Shown here: piece after piece, positions 22,446-25,681 of the stretch
Layout: every line of letters starts with the position of its first letter
Position numbering within the stretch: position 1 is the stretch's first letter
NCBI GenBank assembly: GCA_016214005.1
Contig: JACRPK010000018.1
Span: forward strand, 1-49,555
Source: Candidatus Wolfebacteria bacterium
GTDB lineage: Bacteria; Patescibacteriota; Minisyncoccia; UBA6257; UBA9933
Length of the DNA: 49,555 nucleotides
Reading direction: 5' to 3'
Notes under the pieces: generated by a model
Seen by the model: the letters and a program-made list of their open reading frames with translations, nothing else
Database searches by the model: none
What the model was told of the DNA's origin: nothing
Translations under genes and position numbers: made by a program

Positions 22446-23408
22446 TTATTTTTCCGTTTTGATTTTATTTAAAATTTTCTCTATTTTTTTAATGCTTTCG
22501 GAATTATGAATTGAAACAGAAATAATTTCTAGGTTTATTTTTTTAAGCGCGGTTAATTTTTCTTTAATTGATTTTTCATCAGTAAGATCGCTTTTTGATA
22601 AAAATAAATATTCTTGTTTTTCCAAAAGTTTTTTATTATACGCGCCGAGCTCCTGGCGAATTATTTTATAATCCTTAACCGGGTCAGGGGATTCAGCGGA
22701 AATAAAATGAAAAAGAATTTTTGTGCGTTCAATATGGCGCAAGAATTTTATTCCTAAACCTCGACCAGTTGAAGATCCTTCAATTAGCCCGGGAATATCA
22801 GCGAGAATTAATTCATAATAAGCTCCCAAATTTGGTTCCAGTGTTGTAAAAGGATAATTCGCCACCTTACTTTGCGCTTTAGTGAGGGTATTGAGCATAC
22901 TTGATTTGCCGGCATTAGGAAGTCCGATAAAGCCGATATCAGCGATGAGTTTGAGTTCAAATCTAAATTCAAAATTTTCGCTCGGAATGCCGGGCTGGAA
23001 TCTTCTCGGTGAAGTGTTTTTTGGAGAACGAAAATGAAAATTCCCTTTGCCGCCTAGCCCGCCTTTGGCAATAATAATTCTCTCGTTTATTTTTTCAATA
23101 GAAATATCTTTATCTGTTGTTAGATTATGAATAACGGTTCCGACGGGAACTTTTAAGATTAAATCTTTTCCATCGTGGCCGTCGCAAAATTGTCCGCGTC
23201 CGTCCATGCCGTTTTCCGCTTTAAATTCTTTTTTAAAACGAAATTGACCCAGGGCGCTGATATCGGAAACGCCAACAACAAAAACATTACCGCCATTCCC
23301 GCCGCTACCTCCCGCCGGTCCTAGACTCATCATATTTTTGTTAAAAGCCACAGCGCCTTTGCCGCCATTGCCAGCTGAAATTTTAATTTTTATATCGTCA
23401 ATAAGCAT
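22446..23408 (-). CDS. obgE: GTPase ObgE/CgtA (lacks the C-terminal OCT extension)
   Basis: Obg glycine-rich fold GPAGGSGGNGGNVFV and G motifs GLPNAGKSSMLN, DIPGLIEGSSTGRGLGIKFLRH. Confidence 0.95.
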   Translation of the reverse strand: MLIDDIKIKISAGNGGKGAVAFNKNMMSLGPAGGSGGNGGNVFVVGVSDISALGQFRFKKEFKAENGMDGRGQFCDGHDGKDLILKVPVGTVIHNLTTDKDISIEKINERIIIAKGGLGGKGNFHFRSPKNTSPRRFQPGIPSENFEFRFELKLIADIGFIGLPNAGKSSMLNTLTKAQSKVANYPFTTLEPNLGAYYELILADIPGLIEGSSTGRGLGIKFLRHIERTKILFHFISAESPDPVKDYKIIRQELGAYNKKLLEKQEYLFLSKSDLTDEKSIKEKLTALKKINLEIISVSIHNSESIKKIEKILNKIKTEK

Positions 23409-23421
23409 TTATTTATATTAC

Positions 23422-24360
23422 TTAAATTTGCCACTCATGAAAAGCCGTATATTTTCTTTTTCGGCCAGTTCCATTTTTAAGATTTGAATATTTACGGAAT
23501 TCGCAGCCAATTCCTTCCCAATTTTCCGTTGATAAAATAATCGGCTTATTGTTATATGTCAAATAAGGGAAATTTCTGGGTTTATGGTTAATAAGAAAAA
23601 GCGCAATATTTTCCGGATCTATTTTTTTGTTTAATAATTTCATTGTTGGGATAGAGCCTGGTCCGATCGGAAATTTTCCATAAAGATTGATAAATTTTGG
23701 ATATTGATAAGCGACATCAATAAGTATTTCTGTCCAATGAAATTTAAAATTAAATTTGAATATGAAAATTATTTTATTAAGACATTCTGAAATTGAAATT
23801 TTATTTTGATCCTGTATTAATTTTGCTATCTTGGAAATTATTTTGGGCAGATAAAAACATAAAAATTTTTCTCGTGTCGGATAGTCACTTTTTAATATTA
23901 TGCTTATCGGGAAAACATACGCTGAACCGAATTTCGGCCGCGGTAATTTGATGAGTTTTTCATAAATTTTTTGATTGTGTTTTTTATTGAAATTTAAAAA
24001 TCCGATTTTTAAAATTATGTCTGGATTGCATGTAAATCTACAAAATGCCACATTTAAAAGCCAGAGGGGAAAATTATTTCTTAAATTTCCAAGAAAATAA
24101 TGTATTTGTATCGTTTGTCTGTCTAGCTCTCGATAAATATTGCAAAAACGATATTTTGAAATAATCGGATCAGAAGTATATGGTGGCGATTTTCTAAATT
24201 TTTTTTTATGCCATATCTCCATTCGTTTTTTTATAAATAAATCTATTTTCCGCAATATTTTTTTATTACAAACAATATTTATTTTTTCCGGCAAAATAGG
24301 GTTGACATGATTTTGCCAGTGGCGATATAAATTTTTTAAATTTTTCGGAATTTCATACAT
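23422..24360 (-). CDS. putative DNA base hypermodification protein (HMUDK-helical / alpha-glutamyl-putrescinyl-thymine pyrophosphorylase-like), stand-alone
   Basis: family-like pattern IxxRMEIWHKK..PPYTSDPIISKYRFCNIYRELDRQT, GSAYVFP, FPIGPGSIPT, ENWEGIGCEFRKYSNLKNGTGRKRKY. Confidence 0.6.
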   Translation of the reverse strand: MYEIPKNLKNLYRHWQNHVNPILPEKINIVCNKKILRKIDLFIKKRMEIWHKKKFRKSPPYTSDPIISKYRFCNIYRELDRQTIQIHYFLGNLRNNFPLWLLNVAFCRFTCNPDIILKIGFLNFNKKHNQKIYEKLIKLPRPKFGSAYVFPISIILKSDYPTREKFLCFYLPKIISKIAKLIQDQNKISISECLNKIIFIFKFNFKFHWTEILIDVAYQYPKFINLYGKFPIGPGSIPTMKLLNKKIDPENIALFLINHKPRNFPYLTYNNKPIILSTENWEGIGCEFRKYSNLKNGTGRKRKYTAFHEWQI

Positions 24361-24436
24361 TTCGTTTTGAGATTAGCATTTTAACGATATTATTGCTATT
24401 ATATTAAATACAATATTTTATGAATATATTTTATTT

Positions 24437-25681
24437 ATGCAAAAATCATCATTGAATAATTCTAAAGATTTTTTGAGACTCGGCATTGCTCCGGGAATTT
24501 TAAATATCCTTCAAAAAAAAGGTTTTAAAGAACCGACGCCAATTCAGGCTCAGTCAATTCCAGTGGCGCTTGAAGGAAAAGATTTAGTTGGCATTGCCCA
24601 AACCGGCACGGGCAAAACTTTGGCTTTCGGCATTCCAGTAATCCAAAATTTATTTCAAAACAGAGGAGTCGGACTGATAGTTTTGCCGACCAGAGAGCTG
24701 GCAATTCAAGTGCGGGAGTCGTTAAATATTATCGCGCCTTCATTTAAAATGAAAACAGCTATGCTTATCGGTGGCGCGCCAATTGGCAGGCAGATAAGCG
24801 AACTTCGCCAAAAGCCGGAAATAATTATCGGCACTCCTGGTCGGATTATAGATCATTTAGACCACAGAACTCTCAATTTATCCGGAGTAAAAATTTTGGT
24901 TCTTGACGAAGCTGACCGGATGCTTGATATGGGATTTGCGCCGCAATTAAAACGGATTTTAAATTTTGTGCCAGCTGAAAGGCAGACGCTTTTATTTTCA
25001 GCCACTATGCCGCCGGATATTATTAATATCGCGCGTTCGTTTATGAAATTGCCGACGCAGATTGAAATCGCTCCGCCCGGCACCGCTTCGGCAAATGTTA
25101 CGCAGGAAGTTTTTATTGTCAGGCGTGAACAAAAACAAGCTCTTTTAAACAGCTTGCTTAATGACTACCGCGGCTCGGTTTTGGTTTTTGTAAGGACAAA
25201 ATTTAGCGCCAAAAAAATCGCCAGAAATATCAGAGATGCCAATCATACGGCAACGGAACTTCACTCAAACCGCACTCTTGGCCAAAGGCGAGCCAGTCTT
25301 GAAGGATTTAAAAACGGAGTTTATAGGGTTTTAGTCGCCACTGACATCGCCAGCCGCGGTATTGATGTGAGCGGAATTGAACTGGTTGTTAATTATGATT
25401 TGCCGGCTCAGGCGGAGGATTATGTGCATCGCATTGGCCGCACCGGCAGAGCCAGCGCCGTTGGCCACGCGATTTCTTTTGCAACGCCCGACCAGCGCAA
25501 AGAATTATATTTTATTGAAAAATTATTAAGAAAGTCGCTGCCGCTTGCAAAATTGCCGGAGTCGCTGCCGGAATTACCGCCGATTTCAAAAACCGGACCA
25601 AGATTTTATTCTCAAAATCGTCCGAGAAAATTTAATAGAGATTTTAACCAAGGAGGAAATAGATTCCGTCGCCGTGATTAA
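24437..25681 (+). CDS. DEAD-box RNA helicase (RhlE-like)
   Basis: AQTGTGKT, PTRELAIQV, VLDEADRMLDMGF, SATMP, HRIGRTGRA motifs; basic Arg-rich tail. Confidence 0.93.
   Translation: MQKSSLNNSKDFLRLGIAPGILNILQKKGFKEPTPIQAQSIPVALEGKDLVGIAQTGTGKTLAFGIPVIQNLFQNRGVGLIVLPTRELAIQVRESLNIIAPSFKMKTAMLIGGAPIGRQISELRQKPEIIIGTPGRIIDHLDHRTLNLSGVKILVLDEADRMLDMGFAPQLKRILNFVPAERQTLLFSATMPPDIINIARSFMKLPTQIEIAPPGTASANVTQEVFIVRREQKQALLNSLLNDYRGSVLVFVRTKFSAKKIARNIRDANHTATELHSNRTLGQRRASLEGFKNGVYRVLVATDIASRGIDVSGIELVVNYDLPAQAEDYVHRIGRTGRASAVGHAISFATPDQRKELYFIEKLLRKSLPLAKLPESLPELPPISKTGPRFYSQNRPRKFNRDFNQGGNRFRRRD

Follow-up and report, generated by a model that had tools for sequence, protein, structure and literature searches.

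The window analysed here, a stretch of 49,555 nucleotides from a Candidatus Wolfebacteria bacterium, encodes a stand-alone member of the HMUDK_hel family, a 312-amino acid protein that belongs to a distinct subfamily found in all or nearly all cases in CPR/Patescibacteria. What is new is the setting: this is an orphan CPR subfamily of a known family. The protein is likely to be active and to work without the known pathway, and our best inference is that its target is a modified thymine in incoming DNA. This reading draws on the preservation of the invariant site, the lack of genes for making the substrate, the passage of the gene from lineage to lineage and the genes found beside its relatives.

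The open reading frame (23422..24360, minus strand) starts with ATG and is a genuine gene: relatives occur at 37 GTDB loci, nearly all of them full-length, and close pairs have dN/dS values of 0.06-0.16 (simple NG86; most dS above 1, near saturation). Its product matches PF18723 (HMUDK_hel) with 51 bits (cut-off 25; E=1.7e-13) over residues 36-293 and positions 4-273 of the 281 in the profile, the sole family matched in the Pfam search, and it also matches phrog_2396 (E=6.4e-16). All 35 subfamily members tested likewise match PF18723 and none matches another family; we regard the membership of the 312-residue protein in PF18723 as near certain. Searches against NCBIfam and, by sequence, against solved structures returned no match for it. 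An earlier note, made by eye, had seen in the protein the helical-domain pattern of 5-hmdU DNA kinases and a resemblance to aGPT-Pplase enzymes. The significant profile matches and a match in fold bear out the HMUDK_hel/aGPT-Pplase resemblance, but the Pfam name denotes a helical partner and not a kinase. Identity as a kinase was rejected for want of any kinase match, P-loop or kinase domain, and membership in ADDT (PF18724) was rejected too: the sequence search found PF18723 only, and the structural match to PDB 8z2n has an E-value of 0.07 and a probability of 0.82.

The name used in the phage literature can be traced through gene order. In phage YuA, gp14 is an HMUDK_hel protein (E=7.8e-59) encoded directly after gp13, a PF18748 5-hmdU DNA kinase; gp15 is Nmad5, gp17 a putative deoxyuridylate hydroxymethyltransferase and gp10 an ADDT. 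The order published for the M6-like phage SN1 is Nmad5, aGPT-Pplase1, kinase, rSAM, PLP enzyme and aGPT-Pplase2 (PMC9476957). Read together, these gene orders identify HMUDK_hel with aGPT-Pplase1 and ADDT with aGPT-Pplase2, which makes aGPT-Pplase1 the best-supported phage-literature name for HMUDK_hel and the 312-residue protein the helical partner in that pathway rather than its kinase.

The gene's downstream neighbour and the features of the protein, which include all four motifs quoted in the earlier note, lie at these positions:

22446..23408, minus strand: obgE, 13 bp downstream of the HMUDK_hel gene on the same strand
24256..24360, minus strand: N-terminal extension (about 35 residues) peculiar to the subfamily, with the pattern M-Y-E-[IL]-P..LK.LYRHW..H
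24112..24186, minus strand: signature 1, P.T.DP....[YF].FCN..RE.D.Q (residues 59-83), with N74, R77 and D80 invariant; in this protein PPYTSDPIISKYRFCNIYRELDRQT
residues 145-151 of the 312-residue protein: motif GSAYVFP
23707..23742, minus strand: signature 2, F.W[TS]E.LID..Y (residues 207-218), with F207 and D215 invariant
23644..23673, minus strand: signature 3, F..GPG....T (residues 230-239), with G233 and G235 invariant; in this protein FPIGPGSIPT
23449..23520, minus strand: signature 4, WEG..CE.RKY.N....GR.R.Y (residues 281-304), with C286, E287 and K290 invariant; in this protein WEGIGCEFRKYSNLKNGTGRKRKY

The subfamily was delineated by searching GTDB genome contigs with six members as queries. 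Most of the 37 loci recovered are titled as CPR/Patescibacteria, two being titled only "bacterium" or "uncultured bacterium", and they span WWE3, Dojkabacteria/WS6, Parcubacteria, Uhrbacteria, Nomurabacteria, Saccharibacteria, Shapirobacteria and other groups. The identity of members to the window protein ranges from 41 to 56%. Their distribution is sporadic, with the subfamily present in 3 of 199 relatives and PF18723 as a whole in 9 of 384 genomes of the phylum, the window's included. CPR genomes also hold a second, more phage-like HMUDK_hel group (CPR-B; L019-L022), and one further stand-alone HMUDK_hel protein (L023:9918-10880, genome G238) falls outside both. A viral origin of the subfamily was considered and rejected, the three viral contigs found being phage-type members; two of these contigs carry a Pfam-confirmed thymidylate-synthase-family gene. 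The earlier note had seen in the gene the best candidate in the window for an undescribed system. The family itself has already been described, whereas the literature searched contains no description of a CPR-wide orphan subfamily.

We aligned 35 members of this subfamily (CPR-A) with 22 phage, plasmid and CPR-B members. The N-terminal extension is a conserved feature of the 35 CPR-A sequences and is absent from the others. All 57 sequences share eleven invariant residues (R46, N74, R77, D80, F207, D215, G233, G235, C286, E287 and K290), a set defined on an alignment that includes the window subfamily and kept in full, 11 of 11, by the window protein. Such invariance at an identity of about 20% between subfamilies argues for a retained active or binding site. 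Around it the CPR subfamily has changed consistently (K163R, G205L/F, A209W, Q211E, G239T, D280N and R293N, window numbering), and it no longer has the HhH-like "G.F" seen in other members, whose glycine has been lost at position 205. By this comparison the core is preserved and its surroundings are changed.

The predicted fold agrees with the family assignment. An AlphaFold2 model built from 35 sequences (pLDDT 94.2, pTM 0.92) resembles viral HMUDK_hel proteins in BFVD, with Foldseek matches to those of phiRSL1 (E 3.7e-9), SP10 (9.6e-9) and PhiW-14 (1.4e-7) at query TM-scores of 0.61-0.70; the SP10 match is a 637-residue protein named 5-hmdU DNA kinase, which matches the window fold over part of its length. 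Viral proteins named for an amino acid:DNA transferase domain follow at E-values of 5e-5 and 1e-4. Among PDB entries the top three matches all come from gp46/PUGT of phage PaMx11, a 5-phosphomethyl-dU glycinyltransferase, as separate chains (8z2n/8z2m; E 0.07 to 0.7, best probability 0.82; 12% identity between 8z2n and the window model). This is the only coherent match to a solved structure; it is weak, and it supports a shared fold and nothing further.

From its position, obgE may be co-transcribed with the HMUDK_hel gene as an operon partner, and the earlier note's view that the gene has no link to its neighbours needs amending to this extent, although obgE is not a conserved neighbour elsewhere. 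A conserved operon partner was sought and rejected, no shared neighbour family being found beyond clade-level synteny in 38 loci. A DEAD-box helicase gene lies near the subfamily gene in only three loci. In two family relatives (G010 and G013; L075 and L077) obgE and the helicase gene are convergent neighbours, but at 22446-25681 of the window the helicase has the opposite flank of obgE and is divergent from the HMUDK_hel gene, which indicates that the region has been rearranged. A comparison with these two genomes as empty sites yielded no clean insertion site. The gene has 28% GC, the third lowest among the 48 genes of the window; with z-scores of -1.9 for GC and -1.3 for GC3 this composition is mildly unusual, too mildly so to serve as proof of recent acquisition.

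With ObgE as a yardstick of vertical descent, identity of the HMUDK_hel gene to the window copy shows no correlation with ObgE identity (rho -0.09, n=16). The copies from the Brennerbacteria and Parcubacteria genomes whose ObgE is 66% and 60% identical (L045 and L050) belong to a 20-row clade (support 100/99) from which the window copy is excluded; the rows closest to the window copy are L028, WWE3 and Dojkabacteria. A Saccharibacteria copy is nested among Parcubacteria copies. This disagreement between gene and species history indicates that the gene moves between CPR lineages. It is kept by purifying selection as a single gene.

The earlier note described the gene as stand-alone. This is true of the window, and within the set of searchable families it is also true of the gene's own genome and about 30 sister genomes. 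PF18723 is single-copy in the 639-kb genome. As sources of 5-hmdU, a hydroxymethylase of thymidylate synthase fold and TET/JBP were looked for there: neither ThyA (PF00303) nor ThyX (PF02511) was found with controls positive, and TET/JBP (PF12851) was not found with a control that was silent too. Having neither ThyA nor ThyX, the cell seems to have no means of converting dUMP to dTMP, and it may take thymidine from a host. MazG_C was found in none of 36 CPR genomes and is absent from this one (two plasmid controls positive), and ADDT was found in none of 31 CPR genomes, this one included (two phage records positive, YuA among them). The PF18748 kinase was found neither in this genome nor in any of 30 sister genomes, with YuA positive and a model that misses some kinases: it gave no match in the record of phage SH-Ab 15599, a likely carrier. 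Likewise, a viral contig (L005:625-2077) has a P-loop kinase-like open reading frame overlapping HMUDK_hel, with a thymidylate-synthase-family gene adjoining; this frame has no Pfam match, which indicates that Pfam under-detects such kinases. CPR genomes may therefore hold a divergent kinase, and the kinase negative is the weakest of these results.

The subfamily genomes yielded no recognised modification partners, and for this reason the role we consider most likely is that of a one-protein enzyme; since the same lone gene has spread across many CPR lineages it probably does its own job unaided. We favor, as possible rather than probable, a model in which it acts on a modified thymine that its own cell does not make, plausibly in invading phage DNA. 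The CPR-specific subfamily has retained the invariant residues and gained the N-terminal extension; in this model its product would bind DNA, recognise a modified thymine from elsewhere, most plausibly 5-hydroxymethyl-dU or a derivative in phage DNA, add to, remove or block that base, and so play a defensive part. The narrower proposal of a one-gene CPR defence, in which the lone enzyme would detect 5-hydroxymethyl-dU or derivatives of it in the DNA of a phage and so make the phage's own protective base work against it, we hold to be rather unlikely as it stands; a host lacking such a base would need no self-modification partner. Defence is countered by the position of the CPR copies, which sit among housekeeping genes and not in defence islands, and no phage of CPR bacteria with a modified thymine came to light. 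The link to defence comes instead from other branches of the family.

Among 23 plasmid relatives of the second group, a cassette recurs that comprises an acyl carrier protein or holo-ACP synthase, an HTH protein, ImmA/IrrE, MazG with MazG_C or a dTMP kinase, and a gene annotated as thymidylate synthase or dCTP deaminase; it is found in varying combinations in Sinorhizobium, Allocoleopsis, Nostoc, Streptomyces, Mycobacterium, Rhizobium and Haloarcula. The label "thymidylate synthase" rests on record annotation, two such plasmid genes having been scanned and giving no PF00303 match. Seven loci from cyanobacteria to a haloarchaeon (L086, L087, L088, L089, L068, L070 and L092) have the ACP/holo-ACP synthase cassette, often with a "thymidylate synthase" or C1 peptidase, and no such cassette was seen in L067, L090, L091 and L093. 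A Gloeothece HMUDK_hel record has a CBASS phospholipase and a ThsB-like TIR nearby, and a Parabacteroides record has TIR, Nmad2 and radical SAM genes. The plasmid surroundings of the family are thus often of a kind that resembles hypermodification or defence cassettes. PADLOC gave no match for the window, CPR or plasmid members, meaning only that they are not described in PADLOC. The DefensePredictor study reports a validated anti-phage system that contains a "5-hydroxymethyluracil kinase", and it lists aGPT-Pplase among the predicted defence proteins (PMC13092281).

Other readings have to be weighed against this model. The protein could, together with unrecognised partners such as a divergent kinase or hydroxylase, place a rare hypermodified thymine in the cell's own DNA. 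The retained invariant residues, the blind spots of the Pfam kinase models and the phage loci read in detail, which have a kinase and/or a thymidylate-synthase-family gene near HMUDK_hel, speak for such self-modification, but the genome has no match to ThyA, ThyX, TET/JBP, PF18748, ADDT or MazG_C, the kinase, MazG_C and ADDT searches are also empty across about 30 sister genomes, and no partner gene travels along despite transfer between lineages; we consider it unlikely. A similar doubt attaches to repair or editing, whereby a glycosylase-like enzyme would remove or neutralise damaged thymine (5-hmU or 5-formyl-U) in the cell's own DNA, and which we rate as a little more improbable still. A single-gene repair enzyme requires no partners, and an 8-oxoguanine DNA glycosylase is among the low-ranking structural matches (3n0u; target-length TM 0.42), but at noise level (E 5.4, probability 0.10); moreover the HhH-like glycine at position 205 is lost in the subfamily, and presence in so few relatives is more sporadic than expected of a repair gene.

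Recruitment of the domain to modify uridine in RNA, for example in tRNA, would similarly dispense with DNA-modification partners, and the subfamily's own N-terminal extension speaks for it. We think it distinctly improbable: no RNA-modification neighbour or fusion was seen at the loci, and the gene is sporadic and transferred, unlike core tRNA enzymes. Least credible, to the point of being very improbable indeed, is a decaying, functionless leftover from a phage. A sporadic, AT-rich and partnerless gene would suit that description, but the frames are intact and full-length at nearly all loci, the eleven invariant residues are kept, and the purifying selection evident from dN/dS largely refutes it.

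Most of what is known of thymine hypermodification comes from phages. That a separate, lone subfamily spreads among tiny CPR genomes under purifying selection means that the domain is useful without the rest of the pathway. The lone CPR gene thus provides a clean single-gene test of HMUDK_hel/aGPT-Pplase1 function, and the subfamily is a candidate defence or repair factor in bacteria that can spare few genes.

Set beside known systems, the window protein differs from the P-loop 5-hmdU DNA kinase (PF18748), which adjoins HMUDK_hel in YuA, in having neither P-loop nor kinase domain. ADDT (aGPT-Pplase2) and PaMx11 gp46/PUGT provide its best match among solved structures, and viral models named for ADDT match too, but they form a separate Pfam family and, at the E-value and identity given above, are not the same family by sequence. 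The plasmid HMUDK_hel proteins are, like the CPR copy, cellular and mobile, and in them too the domain forms a protein by itself, some 280-380 residues long; they often sit in multi-gene cassettes, in bacteria and a haloarchaeon, whereas the CPR subfamily is a single gene in genomes without MazG_C. In YuA, phage HMUDK_hel/aGPT-Pplase1 adjoins a 5-hmdU kinase and has a deoxyuridylate hydroxymethyltransferase close by; neither is recognised for the CPR copy, and this copy further departs from the phage protein by its extra N-terminus and by K163R, A209W, Q211E, G239T, D280N and R293N (window numbering). These phage proteins (YuA gp14 and SN1_020 of the M6-like phage) share with the CPR copy PF18723 over near full length, the predicted fold and the invariant residues.
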